IMG/VR virus record: IMGVR_UViG_3300017786_003484
Span: 62,001-126,000 of that record
Length of the DNA stretch: 64,000 nt
Direction: 5' to 3' (one strand)
Source of the DNA: a virus
The translations under genes and the position numbers were made by a program. This document shows, in pieces, positions 46,759 to 62,683 of the stretch. The notes under the pieces were generated by a model, which was not told where the DNA came from, made no database searches, and saw only the letters and a program-made list of their open reading frames with translations. Within the stretch, counting starts at the first letter, position 1. Every line of letters begins with the position of its first letter.

Positions 46759-47838
46759 ATGGAGCCAATTAAATTAAAGTGGCTAATAGCTCACGAGCCA
46801 CAATACCTATTTGTCCGCACGGCAAAAGCATTCCAAGAAGAATTAGAAAAAAGATGTCCAGGAGAGTTTGATATTGAAATCCTAGACATGAAAACTTACA
46901 TTCAAAAGTACGATGAAGTACCAGAATTACATCTTAAACCAGCATCTATAAAAAACTTAGAGAAAGACTGGGAAAATAGCAATAATATGGGCGGCGGAAT
47001 TTTTAAATCTGTGGCACAATCAGAGATAGGCAAGAAATGGAAAGCATATTTTTCTGCAATTAAGGATGGACGTATTGACATTAGTCAAACACAAATTACA
47101 GTTATAGGATCTTTCTTATATAAGCCTTTTCACTCTTTAGACCTTCCATTCCTATTCAAGGATCATGACCATGTAACCAGAGCATTAGACGGATGGATTG
47201 GTAAAAAACTTCGCGGCGAGCTGGAAGATAGAACTGGAGTTAAATCTTTAGGTTTTACTTACTCAGGCGGATTTAGAATTATCGGTTCTAACCATGATAT
47301 TGAAGGAGTATCTGACTTAAAAGATACAACTGTACAGACTGTTCCGACTACTACTGCAATGTTTAATAGTCCAGAAATTGGCAGTACTGCTATTCCTAGA
47401 AGGTCAATGGATATTCAAGAAGCTAAAGATTTTGCTAAAGATAGTAACTCGGCTGTTGAAACAACTTACCTAAGATTTAAAGGAACAAATATTTTAAAGA
47501 CAAACCATTCTATGTTCTTAACTAGTATTTTAGCAGGATCAAAATTATTTGACAAGCTAACACCAGAACAACAAGAAGCTTTCAAAGAATCTGCTTATGC
47601 AGTATCAAAGATTGAAAGAAAATGGTCACTTGAAGACTGTGAAAAGTATGAAAGAGAAGCAGAAGAGAAAGGAATTCAGATAAGAGATATTACTCAAGAA
47701 GAATCTGATTTTCTTGCTTCTAATGCTCGTGTTTCGTACGAAGATTATTTTTCAACTGATCATCAAAACGGTGGTAAAGTGCCAGACGAGCTTTATCATA
47801 AACGTAAACGTATTGTTGACGATATTAAAGCAATATAA
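46759..47838 (+). CDS. DctP-like TRAP solute-binding protein without signal peptide
   Basis: 359 residues. It starts directly with the first strand of the binding fold (IKLKWLIAHEPQYLFVRTAKA). LDLPFLFKDHDHVTRALDG, GVKSLGFTYSGGFRIIG and MFLTSILAGSKLFDKL are TRAP solute-binding landmarks. There is no hydrophobic leader, so the protein should stay in the cytoplasm or join the virion. It is paralogous to the protein at 51503. An extra loop at about residues 50-85 distinguishes it. Ligand unknown. Confidence 0.8.
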   Translation: MEPIKLKWLIAHEPQYLFVRTAKAFQEELEKRCPGEFDIEILDMKTYIQKYDEVPELHLKPASIKNLEKDWENSNNMGGGIFKSVAQSEIGKKWKAYFSAIKDGRIDISQTQITVIGSFLYKPFHSLDLPFLFKDHDHVTRALDGWIGKKLRGELEDRTGVKSLGFTYSGGFRIIGSNHDIEGVSDLKDTTVQTVPTTTAMFNSPEIGSTAIPRRSMDIQEAKDFAKDSNSAVETTYLRFKGTNILKTNHSMFLTSILAGSKLFDKLTPEQQEAFKESAYAVSKIERKWSLEDCEKYEREAEEKGIQIRDITQEESDFLASNARVSYEDYFSTDHQNGGKVPDELYHKRKRIVDDIKAI

Positions 47839-47845
47839 GTAACAA

Positions 47846-47892
47846 AATAGACTAGATAGGTAATTCAATTTTAAAACCCTATCTAGTCTATT
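47846..47892 (+). terminator. 15-bp hairpin after the first DctP-like gene
   Basis: AATAGACTAGATAGG (47846-47860) pairs perfectly with CCTATCTAGTCTATT (47878-47892) over a 17-base loop, followed by CTTTT. Likely a terminator, or a 3'-end protecting structure, since the T-run is short. Confidence 0.65.
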
Positions 47893-47897
47893 CTTTT

Positions 47898-47931
47898 GAT
47901 AAATAAAGTTAACATGTGTATAGCACATGTT
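47898..47931 (+). promoter_or_regulatory. late-type box and leader hairpin of the cold-shock gene
   Basis: GATAAATA (47898-47905) is followed by the perfect hairpin AACATGTG-tatag-CACATGTT (47911-47931) exactly where the message would begin. AAAAAGG stands before the ATG. Cold-shock mRNAs are often controlled by leader structure; a link here is inference. Confidence 0.5.
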
Positions 47932-47957
47932 ATTAATTAAAAAGGTACAAATAAAAT

Positions 47958-48176
47958 ATGGCAATAGAACTAACAGGCAAAGTAAAATGGTTTCAAGACG
48001 CAAAAGGATGGGGTTTTATTAAACCTGACGATGGTTCCGATGATGTTTTTGCACACTATTCAGCAATTAATTCGGATGGCTTTAAATCATTAAAAGAAGG
48101 TCAAGCAGTAACATTTGAAGTAATTCAAGGTGCTAAAGGACGTCAAGCCGCCAATATCAATTTAATTGAATCTTAA
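47958..48176 (+). CDS. cold-shock protein, CspA-like
   Basis: 72 residues, one cold-shock domain: [20 protein letters not shown] contains RNP1 (KGWGFI, with Trp in place of the usual Phe) and [10 protein letters not shown] contains RNP2. Such proteins bind ssRNA and ssDNA and melt secondary structure. Found between TRAP genes, so it may be only a cargo neighbour; it could aid translation of phage mRNA in cold water. Confidence 0.93.
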
Positions 48177-48216
48177 GACTAACTCTCCATAAATTATAAC
48201 AATAGTAATCTTAAAG

Positions 48217-48224
48217 ACTAAATA
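48217..48224 (+). promoter_or_regulatory. late-type promoter box before the TRAP operon
   Basis: ACTAAATA, about 85 bases before the dctQ-like ATG at 48310. No host-type promoter is visible in this gap, so the transporter would be expressed late. Weak evidence, from likeness only. Confidence 0.35.
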
Positions 48225-48309
48225 GATTATGGTAGTACATGTATAGGAACATAGAGTAACTATGCATATAACATCTGTTTACAGAAAATAGATAAGGCAT
48301 TAGAGATTC

Positions 48310-48807
48310 ATGAGTTTAACTGACTTCATCGACAGAAGTATAAGTCGATTTGCAAAATATTATTCTTGGTTTGCATTACTAATGGTATTGTTCGTTGTGA
48401 TCAATGTCTTGGGAAGATATTTCTTTGACATTCGCAATGATTATGCAGTTGATTCAACATGGCAATTATACGGTATGCTTATTATGTTTGGTTGCAGTTA
48501 TTCATTAGGAAAAGAAGCACATATTAGAACAGATCTGTTCTGGAACAATTATAAAGATCGTACAAAAGCAATTATTGACTTTGTAAGTTATCTCTTACTA
48601 TTCTTTCCTTCATTTGCACTTATCACATACATCAGTTTCAATGATACATCAGCCGCTATTGAGATGAACGAACGTAGTTCTGAAACAATGGCCCAGCTTA
48701 TTATATGGCCTATGAAGATTGGTATCACACTTGGTTTAGTACTTTTGATGGTACAAGCATTGAGTCAAATGATCAAATGTTATAGAAGGATTTTTATCAA
48801 TGAGTAA
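48310..48807 (+). CDS. dctQ: TRAP transporter small membrane subunit, DctQ-like
   Basis: 165 residues with four membrane spans: about 18-38 (YSWFALLMVLFVVINVLG), 51-66, 92-112 (VSYLLLFFPSFALITYI) and 132-155 (MKIGITLGLVLLMVQAL). RYFFDI after span 1 and EAHIRTDLFW after span 2 (the usual form is E-HIRVD) are the DctQ family marks. DctQ holds the large subunit and helps docking of the binding protein. It overlaps the next gene by eight bases. Confidence 0.88.
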   Translation: MSLTDFIDRSISRFAKYYSWFALLMVLFVVINVLGRYFFDIRNDYAVDSTWQLYGMLIMFGCSYSLGKEAHIRTDLFWNNYKDRTKAIIDFVSYLLLFFPSFALITYISFNDTSAAIEMNERSSETMAQLIIWPMKIGITLGLVLLMVQALSQMIKCYRRIFINE

Positions 48808-50194
48808 TGAATGGTTAGCAATGACAATGTTATTTACAATGATTGCTGGCATATTTGTTGGAGTTCCAGTTAGTTTTACACTAACATTCTTAGCATTAAT
48901 TTTTGGATTAATGGGATTAGGATTAAGTGTGTTTGATCTCACATATCTCAACCTATTAGGAGGACTTTCAGATGAAGTGCTGATGAGTATTCCTATGTTT
49001 ATCCTTATGGGTTATGTTGCTGAACGAGCCGGACTGGTAGAGAATTTATTTGAGAGCTTAAAAAAGGTACTTGCAGGAGTTCCAGGCAACTTATACATTG
49101 TTGTTATCTGTATTGCAGTATTAATTAGTTTAGCAACAGGAGTAGTCGGAGCATCAGTAACACTATTGGGCATTATGGCCGCTCCAAGTATGATTAAGCA
49201 AGGATACGATCCTAAACTATCAGCAGGAGTAATAGCAGGAGGCGGATCTCTTATCATGATCCCTCCATCCATTCCCCTTATTGTAATGGCGCCTACAATG
49301 AATCTTAATATCATTGACGTATATGCGGCCGCAATAGGACCAGGATTAGCGATTGCATTTATGTATCTAGTATACGTTATATTCCTTATAAAAACAAAGC
49401 CAGAGGTAGCACCTATGATACCTGTGGAAGAAAGAGTAAAAGTAGATTTCAAGTTAATTCTGTTAACGTTATGGCATATTGTGCCATTAGCATCATTGAT
49501 TCTTATTACATTAGGATCAATGTTATTTGGACTAGCAACTAGCACAGAAGCTGGTGCCTTTGGTGCCTTTGGTGCTTTATGTTTAGCCGCTATTAACAGA
49601 AGATTAACTTTAACAAATATTCAAGAAGCATTATTAAAAACTACCAATACGTCGGCAGTGGTAATGTTATTAGCAATTACGTCAACAATATTTGGTGCCG
49701 TATTTGCTTCCTTGGGTGGTGACAAAATCATTGTATCAGTACTAACTTCAATGCCTATACCCGGATGGGCAATAGTTGGAGCGATATTAGTGTTATGTCA
49801 TATTTTAGGCTGGCCCTTTGAGTGGCCAGTGGTAGTGCTAGTGTTCTTACCAATTTTCTTACCAGTATTAATTGATACTGGTGTTGACTTAATTTGGTTT
49901 GCGGCCGCTTTGGGTGTTATTTTACAAACAGCATATTTAACACCTCCTGTAGCCTTAACCGGATACTACCTAAAACAGGTGGTGCCTTCGTGGGATCTTA
50001 AATTAATATTCAAAGCAATGATGCCCTTTATGTATATTCAGGTTGTTTGTGTTGTAATATTGTTTATTACACCTGGCCTTGCAACATGGTTACCTAATTA
50101 CCTAGCAGAGCAAAGAAAAAATATAGTACAAGAAGTACTAGATGAGGATGTCAAAGGACAGGAAGTCGACTTCCTAGGTGTCCTTGGACAATAA
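48800..50194 (+). CDS. dctM: TRAP transporter large membrane subunit, DctM-like
   Basis: 464 residues with some 12 hydrophobic spans. The family pattern is clear: IFVGVPVSFTL at the start, LLGIMAAPSMIKQGYDPKLSA, GGGSLIMIPPSIPLIVMAP, and the second-half repeat with TPPVALTGYYLKQV. It catalyses sodium-driven uptake of organic acids delivered by DctP. It has the full length for a functional transporter and no frameshift. The next gene starts 19 bases after the stop with its own GGAGA site. Confidence 0.93.
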   Translation: MSNEWLAMTMLFTMIAGIFVGVPVSFTLTFLALIFGLMGLGLSVFDLTYLNLLGGLSDEVLMSIPMFILMGYVAERAGLVENLFESLKKVLAGVPGNLYIVVICIAVLISLATGVVGASVTLLGIMAAPSMIKQGYDPKLSAGVIAGGGSLIMIPPSIPLIVMAPTMNLNIIDVYAAAIGPGLAIAFMYLVYVIFLIKTKPEVAPMIPVEERVKVDFKLILLTLWHIVPLASLILITLGSMLFGLATSTEAGAFGAFGALCLAAINRRLTLTNIQEALLKTTNTSAVVMLLAITSTIFGAVFASLGGDKIIVSVLTSMPIPGWAIVGAILVLCHILGWPFEWPVVVLVFLPIFLPVLIDTGVDLIWFAAALGVILQTAYLTPPVALTGYYLKQVVPSWDLKLIFKAMMPFMYIQVVCVVILFITPGLATWLPNYLAEQRKNIVQEVLDEDVKGQEVDFLGVLGQ

Positions 50195-50213
50195 TATTTT
50201 GGAGAATAAAAAT

Positions 50214-51308
50214 ATGAAACGTTTCATCGGAGCGATATCAGCTATCGCAATGTCATTTGGCGTAGTGGCTTCAGTAGCAACTGCAAATGCCAAAGAACTA
50301 CAGATTGCATCTAGTTTTGGAGCAATCTCAACTTTTAACGAGCAAGCAAACTTTCTTGCCGAAAGAGTTAAAGTATTAACTGACGGAAAAATTGATATGA
50401 AAATCAGACCTTCCGGCGCATTAGTTCCTTCTTTTAAGGTTCTAGATGCTACGGCGTCAGGTGCAGTAGATGGTGCATGGACTCAGTCTTATTACTGGGT
50501 AGGAAAGTCAAAGACTCTTGCATTGTTTAATAGTCCGTTGGGAGGACCTTACGGTATGGACGGGATTGATTTCCTAGGTTGGATGTTCCACGGTGGTGGA
50601 CTTGAATTGTATAACGATTTTTATCAGAATGAGTTAAAAATGGATGTACAGGCACTTCCAGCAATGCCTACTCAGAATCAGCCATTAGGTTGGTTTCATA
50701 GACCAATTAAAGATCTAGCAGATCTTAAAAACTTTAAATGTCGTCAAACTGGCGCCAACGTAGAACTTTATGCTCGTATGGGTATGCAGACTATTGGTAT
50801 GCCAGGTGGTGAGATTATGGCCGCGGCCCAAAAGGGTGTTATTAATTGTGCTGAATTCGTTGGTGGTTTAGAAGACGAACGTCTTGGATTTCCAACTGTA
50901 TGGAAATACTACTACTTGAATTCATTGCATGAGCATTCAAATACTGGTGATCTATTGATTAACGGTAAAGTGTGGCGTTCAATGACTAAGCAACAGCAGA
51001 CCGCTGTTCGTTCTGCCGCTTATGAGTCATATCTATGGTGGTTAACTGATATTCAAGCAAAAAATGGTCAAGCACTTGCTAGAATGATCAAAGAGCATGG
51101 CGTTAGAGTTATGAAGACTCCAGCAGATATTTTGGTTGCTGAGTTAGAAACTATTGACGAAATGTTAGCAGAAAATGCCGCAAAGGATCCTTATTTTGCA
51201 AAAGTACTTGCTTCTCAGAAAGCATGGGCAAAGAAAGTAGTTCCATTTAAGAACGTAGCATTTACGCCTTATAACTATGCCGCAGATTACTACTGGAAGA
51301 AAAAGTAG
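50214..51308 (+). CDS. dctP: periplasmic TRAP solute-binding protein, DctP/TakP-like
   Basis: 364 residues from the ATG at 50214 (TTTTGGAGA site before it; a longer in-frame start overlaps dctM). Sec signal peptide MKRFIGAISAIAMSFG then VVASVATANA, cut before KELQI. GMPGGEIMAAAQKGVINCAEF, VGGLEDERLGFPTVWKYYY is the pattern of the 2-oxo-acid/lactate group (TakP type: [21 protein letters not shown]). The binding Arg is probably in FKCRQTG. It likely serves the DctQM pair upstream. A strong terminator follows. Confidence 0.9.
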   Translation: MKRFIGAISAIAMSFGVVASVATANAKELQIASSFGAISTFNEQANFLAERVKVLTDGKIDMKIRPSGALVPSFKVLDATASGAVDGAWTQSYYWVGKSKTLALFNSPLGGPYGMDGIDFLGWMFHGGGLELYNDFYQNELKMDVQALPAMPTQNQPLGWFHRPIKDLADLKNFKCRQTGANVELYARMGMQTIGMPGGEIMAAAQKGVINCAEFVGGLEDERLGFPTVWKYYYLNSLHEHSNTGDLLINGKVWRSMTKQQQTAVRSAAYESYLWWLTDIQAKNGQALARMIKEHGVRVMKTPADILVAELETIDEMLAENAAKDPYFAKVLASQKAWAKKVVPFKNVAFTPYNYAADYYWKKK

Positions 51309-51332
51309 TTTTAAAAGCATATAACGTTAAAA

Positions 51333-51361
51333 ATAGGGTGCTTTATGCATCCTATTTTTTT
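51333..51361 (+). terminator. intrinsic terminator of the TRAP operon
   Basis: ATAGGGTGC-tttat-GCATCCTAT (one G-U pair) followed by seven T. Preceded by AAAA, so it may act in both directions. It separates dctQMP from the DctP-like gene at 51503. Confidence 0.88.
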
Positions 51362-51390
51362 GGCTATAACTTCTATATTTGTTATAAATG

Positions 51391-51398
51391 TATAAATA
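51391..51398 (+). promoter_or_regulatory. perfect T4-type late promoter
   Basis: TATAAATA, identical to the T4 late box, upstream of the second DctP-like gene. The leader is about 100 bases, with AAAAAAGGAG before the ATG. Confidence 0.65.
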
Positions 51399-51502
51399 CA
51401 CTTGGATAGATACGGTTTAATACCTTATCGGAAAAAGCCAGTTTTCTATCTCAATGTTACTTGAAGTAATATTGTTTTCTTAAGAAAAAAAAGGAGTCAA
51501 TT

Positions 51503-52441
51503 ATGACACAGAAAATTAGATGGGTTCTAGCACATGAGCCAATTGAATTATTTCTAAGAGCGGCAAAAGTTTTCGCATCAGAAGTTAATGCAAAAGCAGA
51601 AGGCGCACTAGATATTGAAGTTATGACAATGAATGAGTATTCTGCAAAGTATAATAACGGTGTTGTTGTTACTAAGCACGAACTTGTTGATATGATTAAC
51701 AGAGGCGACATTGAAATGTCCCAAACATACACAGTAGACATTGGCGAATATGATCACGAATTCCGTGCATTAGATATGCCATTCCTATTTGAGTCACACG
51801 ACCACGCAACTAAAGTGTTCGAAGGCCCAATTGGTCAGTCACTACTAGACGGATTAACAGAATCAGCTGGTGTTAAAGGTTTAGCCTTTACATACTCCGG
51901 TGGATATAGAATTATTCCTGGACAAGAAGGAATTGATACTATTGAAGATATTAGAGATCTTAAACTTCGTACTTCTTTCTCACCTGTTGCTATTGAAACA
52001 TTCAAAGCAGTTGGTGCAAACGTAGTTCCAATGGAACTAGAAGAAATGACAGATGCAATCCAAGATGCAGACATTCAAGTTGGTGAGTCTACTTACCCAC
52101 GTATCTATGCATTAGGACAAGACAGAGTTTCTAAGGTTATTAACCACACAGAACACTCATTGTTCTTAACAAGCATCTTAATCAACCAAGACTTCTTTGC
52201 AACTCTTGGTGAAGAACTACAAGGTATTGTTGTAGACGCCGCTAAAACAGCCGCTAATTACGAACGTGTAATCAGCATTGAAGACGTTGCACTTACACAA
52301 GCTAAAGCTGAAAGCGATGGCATTGAAGTTCGTAGAATGTCAACAGAAGAAAAAGCTCGTTTCAAAGCCGCTACTGCTCATGTTTATGACATGTTCCCAG
52401 AGTTAGCTGGAACAGTTAAGAAGATCCAAGATACAAAATAA
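51503..52441 (+). CDS. second DctP-like solute-binding protein without signal peptide
   Basis: 312 residues. KIRWVLAHEPIELFLRAAKVF, LDMPFLFESHDHATKVFEG, GVKGLAFTYSGGYRIIPG, SLFLTSILINQDFF: clear paralogue of the protein at 46759 and a TRAP solute-binding fold. It begins with the first strand and has no export signal. It has its own perfect late box and terminator, so it is a monocistronic late gene, unusual for a transporter part. It could be a cytoplasmic ligand sink, a sensor or a virion component. Confidence 0.82.
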   Translation: MTQKIRWVLAHEPIELFLRAAKVFASEVNAKAEGALDIEVMTMNEYSAKYNNGVVVTKHELVDMINRGDIEMSQTYTVDIGEYDHEFRALDMPFLFESHDHATKVFEGPIGQSLLDGLTESAGVKGLAFTYSGGYRIIPGQEGIDTIEDIRDLKLRTSFSPVAIETFKAVGANVVPMELEEMTDAIQDADIQVGESTYPRIYALGQDRVSKVINHTEHSLFLTSILINQDFFATLGEELQGIVVDAAKTAANYERVISIEDVALTQAKAESDGIEVRRMSTEEKARFKAATAHVYDMFPELAGTVKKIQDTK

Positions 52442-52834: not shown

Positions 52835-53920
52835 ATGCCGGCAAGAAATCATAGAAATTGGTTAAAGAAACCATTAGTAGAATATGTTAGTAGCGAAATA
52901 TATTCAAGTCAAGAAATATTTGAAGAAGAAATCGAAAGTATCTTTTCAAAGGTGTGGGTACCAGTATGCCACATCAGTGAAATGTATAACAAATTAGACT
53001 ATCGAACATCACAAATTGCTGGACATAATATTATTGTGTACAATACCGGAGATGGTGTACGAGCATATCGTAATTATGGCAGTTGGGCACCTACTGGAAC
53101 ATTGCAAGCACCTATTGTAACAGTTGAACCACAACTACATAGCGAAGTAAAGCACGGAGGTATGGTATGGGTAACACTTGATCCTAATCCTACACAGAGT
53201 GTTGAAGAGTGGACAGCAGGTGCATTTGATTGCATTGCTGATGCTATTGACACAGAAGAACTAGAAATTTTTCATTATCATAAAGCAATTATTCCTACCA
53301 ACTACAAACTATGGCATGATACTAACAGTGAATTCTATCATGACTTCATGCATTACTTTAATCGTGTAACTGGTTTCAACGATGAGTATTTTGCTAGAAA
53401 GAATATTCCCTTTGATAACGGGCATGTGAACGTTAGTAGTTTTACTGTAAATTATACAGAGTTTGATAAAGAAGGCGATAGAGGTGAACTAAGTTTTCCT
53501 AACTTACCTCCAAACCAATGGTATATGGTAGATTTGTTTCCTGGCTTTAACTTTAATTTACGTGGTAGTGCATATCGTTCAGATAGTGTTACGCCACTTG
53601 GACCAAATAGTGTACTAATAGAGTTTAGAGGATACGGTTTAAAGAAAGATACTCCAGAAGAAAGACAAACTCGTATTAAACATCATAATACTATCTGGGG
53701 ACCGTTTGGCAGAAACTTACATGAAGATCTTTTAGGTGTAACCGGGCAAGGAGCATCAATGTCTCCAGGCACAGAGAAAAGAAATATTTTACATGGAAGA
53801 CATGAAAATAGTACTATACATGATGAAGTTGGTATGCGTCACTACTATGCAGAATGGGGAAAATATATGGAGTTAGATCCTAGTAATCCAATAAAAGAGG
53901 TTGACAAAAAGGCCGCATAG
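52835..53920 (+). CDS. ring-hydroxylating oxygenase alpha-subunit homologue lacking the Rieske site
   Basis: 361 residues. The framework of Rieske oxygenase alpha subunits is present: IFSKVWVPVCHISEM, DYRTSQIAGHNIIVYNTGDG, VRAYRN at 75-80. At that point the family has the two Cys-x-His / Cys-x2-His cluster motifs over 30 or so residues; here the chain goes directly to YGSWAPTGTLQAPIV. The mononuclear iron region remains (NYKLWHDTNSEFYHDFMH, H169 and H173, with acidic residues near HEDLLGVTGQG). Without the cluster it cannot take electrons the usual way. A tmRNA promoter lies in its last codons. Confidence 0.75.
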   Translation: MPARNHRNWLKKPLVEYVSSEIYSSQEIFEEEIESIFSKVWVPVCHISEMYNKLDYRTSQIAGHNIIVYNTGDGVRAYRNYGSWAPTGTLQAPIVTVEPQLHSEVKHGGMVWVTLDPNPTQSVEEWTAGAFDCIADAIDTEELEIFHYHKAIIPTNYKLWHDTNSEFYHDFMHYFNRVTGFNDEYFARKNIPFDNGHVNVSSFTVNYTEFDKEGDRGELSFPNLPPNQWYMVDLFPGFNFNLRGSAYRSDSVTPLGPNSVLIEFRGYGLKKDTPEERQTRIKHHNTIWGPFGRNLHEDLLGVTGQGASMSPGTEKRNILHGRHENSTIHDEVGMRHYYAEWGKYMELDPSNPIKEVDKKAA

Positions 53921-53931
53921 TGTTATAAATA
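53901..53931 (+). promoter_or_regulatory. ssrA: tmRNA promoter, combined host-type and late-type
   Basis: TTGACA at 53901-53906, 17-bp spacer, TATAAA at 53924-53929. The -10 is at the same time the start of a perfect T4 late box TATAAATA (53924-53931). It lies across the stop codon of the oxygenase-like gene. Start expected near 53936. This would keep the RNA made through the whole infection. Confidence 0.7.
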
Positions 53932-53935
53932 TAAT

Positions 53936-53997
53936 ACAATGGTGAAGCATAACAAACGTTGTACAGGACTCGGGGGCAGTACCCGACGCCTCCACCA
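53936..53997 (+). ncRNA. ssrA: tmRNA acceptor piece (3' part) of a permuted two-piece tmRNA
   Basis: The 3' domain comes first in the gene. T-arm: TCGGG (53970-53974), loop GGCAGTA (53975-53981), CCCGA (53982-53986). Acceptor 3' strand CGCCTCC (53987-53993), discriminator A and encoded CCA (53995-53997). It pairs with GGGGGCG at 54197-54203 over seven pairs, with a G-U at the third position, the alanine identity element of AlaRS. The order acceptor piece, spacer, coding piece is that of alphaproteobacterial tmRNAs. The 5' limit is set from the promoter. Confidence 0.88.
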
Positions 53998-54196
53998 TAA
54001 ACACACGAACGAGGAATGGAACTATAAACAGTTTTAAAGATAAGTGTAGAATATTTTATATCGTTAAAGGTCATCTTAACGTATCTACACAAACAATAGA
54101 AGATTGTTACGATTATTATTTTAGAAGAATGTGGAATAATAACGAGTGTTACATATACGAAGAAGGTTTTGAAGAATCGTATCGTGTTTTTATGAT
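53998..54196 (+). other. intervening segment of the permuted tmRNA precursor
   Basis: 199 bases between the encoded CCA and the 5' end of the coding piece, expected to be cut out during maturation. It is not empty: from about 54013 to the TAG at 54208-54210 one frame is open for over 60 codons with protein-like content (CRIFYIVKGHLNVSTQTIED for example), but no ATG, GTG or TTG starts it near its 5' end. The segment may be a remnant gene or just AT-rich spacer. Confidence 0.5.
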
Positions 54197-54376
54197 GGGG
54201 GCGAAATAGGATCGACTGGCAAGTAGTAGGAATGTGGAGTTGTCCGGATGTAAGCTCGGTTAACGCGAACAAAACGATAATTGCAAACGATAATTTTGCA
54301 TCTGAGGATTTTGCCCTAGCGGCTTAGTTACTCTGGGCGGGTACTGCCTGGAAACAGAAGTGCCACTTAAAGTGAA
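54197..54376 (+). ncRNA. ssrA: tmRNA coding piece (5' part) with tag ANDNFASEDFALAA
   Basis: It begins GGGGGCGAAATAGGATCGAC, the tmRNA 5' signature (acceptor strand and D-region). Pseudoknot-type complementarity follows (GTCCGG and CTCGG near 54240-54260). The tag frame starts at GCA 54283 and reads ANDNFASEDFALAA, stop TAG at 54325-54327. The tag ends ALAA, the ClpXP signal. An identical ACGATAATT stands before and within the tag start, so the resume codon is the likeliest but not the only choice. The 3' end is uncertain by about 15 bases. Function: rescue of stalled ribosomes, with host SmpB. Confidence 0.9.
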
Positions 54377-61780: not shown

Positions 61781-62683
61781 ATGAAGATATTACCCTTAGC
61801 CACGATCGCAGTATTCGTGGGCATCTTTACGGCGAATGCTGGTGAAAAACTAGCACTTCCGTCTACAGAAGGTGTAGACATTACAACATATGGTGAAGTC
61901 CGAGCATATGTTGAAACTTCGACTGTTAATGATGTTGATACAGCAATTAAAACATCAGACAGTAAAATAGGACTAAAATTTAAGACTAAAGAACCAGTAT
62001 ATGTCTTTGGAGAAATGTCAGCTAATGTTGATCTATCCTCAGACGGAGCAGACGATGTAACAACTCGGTTTGGTTATATTGGCGTAGGTACCAATGCATT
62101 GGGAGAAATTTCACTTGGACGTACAATGAGCATTATGGATTCATTTGTTGATAAAGCAGATGTGTTTATGGGTGCAGGAAATCAAGGAGTTCAGAAGACT
62201 CCTTTTACTATGAATAACAGTTTGAAGTATACTGGTAGTTTTAGCGGAGTCGATGTTGGCTTTCAAACACAAATGACTGATGATGCACAAGACCATGACT
62301 TGGATTTATATCAAATTGGTTTAGGCTACAAAGGCATTGGTGTTGCATATGCAAGAGATGAAATTAATTCATCTGACTACTATGGCTTGGGTGTTTCTCA
62401 AAAGTTTGGAAAAATTGGAGCATATGCTAGTGTATCGGTATTAGATGATGATACACAAGCAAATGATGCAGTTGGATATGAACTTGCTGGTTCATATGAT
62501 TTAAACGAAAAACTAACACTACAAGGCGGTTGGCAAGATACTGATGTTACATCAGATGACGGTAACTTGACAATTGAATCACAGTATGAGATTGCAACTC
62601 AATCAGTATTTTTTACTAATATTGATTATGACTTAACAACAGAAGATGCAACTCTTCGAACAGGTCTTAGCTTTACATTCTAA
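61781..62683 (+). CDS. outer-membrane porin-like beta-barrel
   Basis: 300 residues. Signal peptide MKILPLATIAVFVGIFTANA, cut before GEK. The mature part shows alternating strands ending in aromatic residues (VDITTYGEVRAYVETS, RFGYIGVGTNALGEISLGR, GVAYARDEINSSDYYGLGVSQ) and the C-terminal Phe (LRTGLSFTF) needed for barrel assembly. Acidic loops suggest cation selectivity. This is a general porin of the Gram-negative type carried by a phage. Uses: nutrient entry with the TRAP genes, or receptor change. Ribosome site AAAGGAAAA. Confidence 0.85.
   Translation: MKILPLATIAVFVGIFTANAGEKLALPSTEGVDITTYGEVRAYVETSTVNDVDTAIKTSDSKIGLKFKTKEPVYVFGEMSANVDLSSDGADDVTTRFGYIGVGTNALGEISLGRTMSIMDSFVDKADVFMGAGNQGVQKTPFTMNNSLKYTGSFSGVDVGFQTQMTDDAQDHDLDLYQIGLGYKGIGVAYARDEINSSDYYGLGVSQKFGKIGAYASVSVLDDDTQANDAVGYELAGSYDLNEKLTLQGGWQDTDVTSDDGNLTIESQYEIATQSVFFTNIDYDLTTEDATLRTGLSFTF

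Follow-up and report, generated by a model that had tools for sequence, protein, structure and literature searches.

A probable small protein gene nested in the spacer of a phage-encoded permuted tmRNA

What does the spacer of a permuted tmRNA gene hold when it is 199 nt long and open to translation from one end to the other? The question is raised by a locus within a window of 64,000 nucleotides, the whole stretch of DNA analyzed here, which corresponds to positions 62001-126000 of a virus record of 244,432 bases (IMGVR_UViG_3300017786_003484). A preliminary description of this DNA had recognized a permuted two-piece tmRNA but left the 199-nt intervening sequence (IVS) and its reading frame unmentioned. 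The record is that of a T4-like phage, and the window encodes a complete TRAP transporter at 46759-52441, composed of DctP (46759-47838), DctQ (48310-48807), DctM (48800-50194) and two further DctP proteins (50178-51308 and 51503-52441). A gene for the alpha subunit of a ring-hydroxylating oxygenase (PF00848) occupies 52835-53920, ending at the promoter-like site of the tmRNA gene; a 458-base stretch of it is 71.6% identical in DNA to the methanesulfonate monooxygenase gene carried by the SAR116 phage HMO-2011. At 61781-62683 there is a phage-encoded Gram-negative porin (PF13609). Seven tRNA genes are present in the rest of the record (L139, L142 and L144) and none in the window.

The existence of a phage-borne permuted tmRNA is borne out by an Infernal scan (cmscan) against Rfam 15. 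Plus-strand positions 53935-54327 match RF04321 (tmRNA_permuted) with 105.9 bits (E 1.3e-19) and positions 53897-54367 match RF01849, the alphaproteobacterial model (alpha_tmRNA), with 101.3 bits (E 1.7e-26), both scores far exceeding the Rfam cut-offs of 47 and 50 bits, respectively. A second RF01849 match in the record scored 17.9 bits, below the cut-off, and was taken as noise. The 3' (acceptor) piece, at 53937-53997 on the plus strand in the two Rfam alignments, with its 5' end estimated from the position of the promoter, comprises the T arm, the 3' strand of the acceptor stem (53987-53993) and an encoded CCA (53995-53997), the last two being contained in CGCCUCCACCA at 53987-53997. The 5' (coding) piece follows at 54197-54367 on the same strand, its 3' end placed approximately by Rfam, and begins with the acceptor 5' strand GGGGGCG (54197-54203). 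The order is therefore permuted, and the acceptor stem has seven pairs, the third of which is G-U (G3-U). The tag reading frame, at 54283-54327 (+), encodes ANDNFASEDFALAA (54283-54324) and closes with TAG (54325-54327); it is open and ends with LAA and a stop, as it does in all related loci despite their differing tag sequences. The CCA, the GGGGGCG end, the G3-U pair and the tag thus all lie where the preliminary description had placed them. Judged by its sequence, this phage locus encodes an intact, permuted two-piece tmRNA of the alphaproteobacterial type. No intron or riboswitch was found within the window by the Rfam scan; in particular, no group I intron family was matched, and the alignment runs through the T loop without interruption. 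A search for SmpB, a check that the preliminary description had proposed, gave no match across the 244,432-base record, which may be incomplete, and the partner of the phage tmRNA is assumed to be the SmpB of the host. The further suggestion that this tmRNA is in the service of leaderless or broken mRNAs, or carries a specially adapted tag, finds no support, the tag being of a common phage type, with ANDNFASEDFALAA recurring in other viral loci. A 29-residue tag, ANDNALSNVTFVDFSAPVTAVNEDFALAA, is encoded by the phage tmRNA of eight viral loci, including L031, L034, L041 and L045. Rhodobacter phage RcSimone-Hastad (MW677525.1; L003, 2356-2643) has a permuted tmRNA (RF04321, 108.7 bits) without an entry in its feature table.

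The IVS, at 53998-54196 (+), would be absent from a mature two-piece tmRNA. An open frame spans the whole of it, enters the tmRNA and ends at a TAG (54207-54209) within GGGGGCGAAATAG, inside the 5' piece. The nested protein gene that we recognize in this frame, from its homologs and from dN/dS, has 61 codons (54024-54209, +; INSFKDKCRIFYIVKGHLNVSTQTIEDCYDYYFRRMWNNNECYIYEEGFEESYRVFMMGAK) and belongs to what we call the KGH family, after its VKGHLN motif. Its translation matches 11 viral loci, in nine of which (L004-L012) the ORF is likewise nested in an Rfam-confirmed permuted tmRNA and has a C-terminus of MMGAK or MMGTK at the same TAG, so that in all ten nested loci the stop occupies positions +11 to +13 of the tmRNA. 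The window and these nine loci represent six distinct sequences (haplotypes). Of the 15 comparisons between them, 14 give a dN/dS of 0.10-0.27 for the nested ORF and one gives 0.62, values obtained from short sequences that partly overlap RNA structure, with divergence near the IVS ends lowered additionally by constraint on the RNA helix. The pattern indicates that the nested gene is under purifying selection. A profile search recovered at least 560 KGH relatives in viral contigs, and the best 80 of these are, with few exceptions, free-standing and about 60 codons long. The nested copy is the only one in the record, where no second, free-standing KGH gene was detected; no convincing KGH homolog was found in the isolate-phage collection, nor does the protein have a Pfam family or a convincing PHROG family. 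An AlphaFold2 model (pLDDT 78.7) has three helices and no significant fold match in the PDB or among viral models. The cargo of this spacer is a predicted three-helix protein, most of whose relatives are encoded by phage genes that are ordinary and free-standing. We consider it highly probable, leaving aside any question of feedback, that the spacer contains a nested and translated small protein gene.

Translation of the nested gene would begin at a non-AUG codon; AUG, GTG and TTG are absent from the first half of the frame in the window. The candidate start codon is ATA in the window and in L007 and ATT in L008, in each case 9 nt after a Shine-Dalgarno sequence, which in the window is GAGG at 54011-54014 (+); the anti-Shine-Dalgarno duplex is worth -5.9 to -6.6 kcal/mol in all six haplotypes. 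In L009-L012 an in-frame stop directly after the CCA leaves five codons before the ATA; GAGG stands 5 nt ahead of the ATA, and there is no other near-cognate start in that interval. In the family alignment the ATA/ATT column also holds the start codons of two free-standing homologs, ATG in L173 and TTG in L177. AUU and AUA are weak natural start codons, AUU being used for example in infC. Because the codon is conserved and homologous to the starts of free-standing relatives, we infer that initiation occurs at AUA or AUU behind the Shine-Dalgarno sequence. Upstream, a promoter-like site, TTGACA-N17-TATAAATA (53901-53931, +), which also resembles a T4 late promoter, recurs in all six nested haplotypes at 66-69 nt upstream of the CCA end, and transcription probably begins from it.

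The ends of the spacer are paired. Its first nucleotides (53998-54008, +) and its last (54182-54196, +) form a helix, identified by duplex energies, that extends the acceptor stem, with the UGAU adjoining the tmRNA 5' end paired to the A-CCA side. Folding of all six haplotypes gave the same succession of acceptor stem, CCA:UGAU pairing and spacer-end helix, with the ORF in the loop, and the acceptor stem together with the IVS-end duplex amounts to -29.5 kcal/mol in the window and -31 to -35 in its relatives. In 23 long spacers the mean energy was -11.4 kcal/mol for a spacer's own ends, a value reached by none of 10,000 permutations, versus -4.8 for swapped ends. By inspection, the same hairpin, closed by a small loop, is also formed by short spacers (28-32 nt). 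A tail of the form R[VL]FM[MR]GAK is common to the otherwise unrelated spacer proteins of the window, L035 and L051, because it is encoded by the spacer-end helix and the end of the tmRNA.

Long spacers are not peculiar to this phage. An exact 23-base tmRNA 5' motif was found in at least 120 viral contigs; apart from the isolates, all viral loci considered here are metagenomic contigs. Among the matches listed, 116 had a recognizable acceptor and spacers of 7-499 nt, with 59 of the 116 spacers at least 90 nt long, although this figure of 51%, from a sample selected by one motif and confined to the matches listed, is not unbiased. The same motif in 36 bacterial contigs, used as a control, gave spacers of 20-97 nt. 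In Alphaproteobacteria, 266 of 289 genomes have a match; the matches listed, roughly 150, span 293-439 nt, versus 471 nt in the window, and in about 35 of them that were measured, the one of longest span among them, the spacer is 10-104 nt. The 59 long viral spacers fall into 27 clusters, for which ORF coverage is 0.72 compared with 0.48 in dinucleotide shuffles that keep the end (combined Fisher P 3e-9). Six of the 27 clusters have no noteworthy ORF and several others are not significant singly, so a long IVS does not by itself signify a gene. About ten families of small spacer ORFs can be distinguished, without clear mutual similarity. Among those with variants, a bias toward synonymous change is clearest in F2, F4, F5, F7 and F9, with F3 and F8 showing it less strongly. 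None of the spacer-encoded proteins is recognizable as an endonuclease. Small cargo genes of unrelated families thus recur in the same spacer loop among marine phages.

Four of these families, KGH, F7, F4 and F9, occur both within the IVS and elsewhere. Of 50 F7 loci, 14 have the gene in the spacer and 18 have it upstream of the tmRNA; F4 lies in the spacer at 6 of 49 loci; and KGH lies upstream of a tmRNA at three loci and also at L051 and L022. In the isolate phage Melnitz the F7 homolog (QZI94817.1) ends 3 nt ahead of the annotated SsrA, and the 142-nt spacer of that tmRNA holds an ORF, MFKWLSKTRLVV..KIPKYLSG, which is missing from the annotation table. The Melnitz spacer ORF is related to that of L019, which in turn is related to the ORFs of L107 and L111. 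Homologs of F9 are free-standing in the Pelagibacter phages Mosig and HTVC025P and in a related environmental phage, and no hidden tmRNA was found at the F9 homolog of HTVC025P, which lies in an unannotated gap. The presence of the same families inside and outside the spacer indicates that small genes have probably entered it repeatedly. Directly 3' of the phage tmRNAs there is a glutamine riboswitch in L120 (2172-2220) and L298 (3607-3655), and likewise in Melnitz, as published.

The most likely reading of the locus is that the pre-tmRNA doubles as a small mRNA. A single transcript would start from the TTGACA/TATAAATA site just upstream, and the precursor would fold with the acceptor stem lengthened by the spacer-end helix and the protein ORF looped out. 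Ribosomes would start the nested ORF at the AUA behind the Shine-Dalgarno sequence. RNase P, which we infer to be the excising enzyme, would together with 3' processing remove the spacer and leave the two pieces of the tmRNA; acting with host SmpB, these would append ANDNFASEDFALAA to proteins on stalled ribosomes. Two-piece processing and SmpB-dependent tagging are established biology of the permuted tmRNA family. The sole stop of the nested ORF lies 11-13 nt inside the tmRNA, so a cut by RNase P would convert the spacer into a nonstop mRNA. The intact small protein would then come only from the uncut precursor, and the tmRNA would clear translation of the cut spacer. By analogy with known systems, maturation of the tmRNA might act as a switch in which the same cut creates the tmRNA and deletes the nested stop, with trans-translation feeding back on the small protein, which would be made intact only as long as maturation lags. 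We put this feedback forward tentatively and think it rather doubtful. In several other spacer families the ORF stops short of the RNase P site, at -1 (in the UGAU) or at -12 (its own stop), which excludes the nonstop mechanism as a general one; speculatively, it would apply to those ORFs that stop inside the tmRNA, namely KGH, L035/L056/L071 and L051.

We lean toward a plainer account in which the spacer ORF is real and translated but its location plays no part in regulation. The loop would be a safe, cotranscribed site in a compact genome, and the boundary stops those that the conserved UGAU and GAAAUAG elements happen to provide. This account keeps the nested gene and departs from our best explanation only in denying feedback. 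Occupation of the loop by several unrelated families fits it well, as do stops at -1 (UGAU), -12 (own) and +13 (the UAG of the tmRNA), as if the nearest stop were used, and the ordinary starts and stops of the copies that four of the families have elsewhere. Against it, the family in the window no longer has the AUG or TTG with which its free-standing relatives start, and its stop is invariably the one within the tmRNA; both features hint that a conflict between translation and maturation has been tuned. It is very improbable that the IVS is noncoding, either an element of the pre-tmRNA that is conserved as RNA or the decaying fossil of a captured gene. Such an origin would suit the retention of the IVS ends as an RNA helix and the lack of AUG, GTG and TTG in the first half of the ORF, but it is at odds with third-position bias and a dN/dS well under 1 among the six haplotypes, with a 3-nt indel between haplotypes that is in frame, with invariant residues common to the nested ORF and its free-standing homologs, and with the finding that in none of the ten loci does a stop interrupt the frame downstream of the ATA/ATT codon. 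That the tmRNA itself is defective, a decoy titrating host SmpB or the passenger of a past gene capture, we regard as equally improbable: the coding piece shows deletions relative to the alphaproteobacterial model in the Rfam alignment, SmpB was not found in the record, and the tmRNA of phage DS6A, with a tRNA-like domain only, is reported to be of an inhibitor type (PMC11915505, PMC4131195), but the acceptor stem with G3-U, the encoded CCA and the tag frame ending in LAA and a stop are all intact here and kept in related loci.

The translated gene nested in a pre-tmRNA, the reading that we prefer, can be set beside known systems. Of the 133 unique tmRNA structures from phages in a 2021 database, 53 were two-piece, 50 of these coming from marine or aquatic phages (PMC9004378), and a phage-borne permuted tmRNA is therefore not new; the unusual part is the protein gene nested in the discarded spacer. 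With those of Alphaproteobacteria (RF01849), Melnitz and Mosig (PMC9004378) the tmRNA gene of the window shares the order 3' piece, spacer, 5' piece, the G3-U pair, the encoded CCA, a tag beginning ANDN and paired spacer ends. Unlike the alphaproteobacterial genes, whose spacers are about 10-104 nt, it has a spacer of 199 nt, and the conserved protein gene in this spacer extends into the 5' piece of the tmRNA; Melnitz has an ORF-bearing spacer of its own, of 142 nt. A 2025 survey of 97,179 tmRNA sequences mentions spacers that contain a tRNA-Ala gene or a repeat, as well as group I introns that carry homing-endonuclease genes; in its main text, as searched here, protein genes in permuted spacers are not mentioned (PMC11915505). 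Our literature search, which covered few subscription journals, likewise retrieved no report of such genes. As in the group I intron tmRNA genes with homing endonucleases (PMC11915505), a protein gene resides in a part removed from the mature RNA, but there a self-splicing intron interrupts the T loop, whereas the window has no intron and its spacer would be excised from a permuted gene by RNases. The permuted tmRNAs whose IVS contains a repetitive element or a gene for tRNA-Ala (PMC11915505) are similar in having extra material in the spacer; those are isolated cases, whereas here protein ORFs of many families are found in many phages. In Escherichia coli the arfA mRNA becomes nonstop after cleavage by RNase III and arfA is repressed by trans-translation (PMC10107115). 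The nested gene would resemble arfA in that an RNase cut removes the stop codon and the product could come under tmRNA control. In contrast to arfA, a rescue factor whose message is cut by RNase III, the cut in the window would be made by RNase P at the tmRNA itself, and no family match of the nested protein points to ArfA.

Genes of this kind are easily overlooked. ARAGORN made no call for the tmRNA of the window; it detected 16 of 17 phage genes with spacers below 90 nt and only 9 of 23 other long-IVS genes (1 of 17 missed versus 14 of 23). Because it finds few long-spacer tmRNAs, published counts based on ARAGORN are probably too low, and the frequency of such tmRNAs in phages has probably been underestimated.

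The spacers of split tmRNAs have hitherto been treated as waste. Among the marine-phage matches listed, about half are long, and many contain conserved protein genes. With spacer genes of unrelated families, a single RNA seems to act as precursor of the tmRNA and as a small mRNA. The spacer ORFs would bring to light small phage proteins that have escaped annotation, and the gene-in-gene arrangement would become testable, the window providing a simple case for control of a nested gene by processing and trans-translation.
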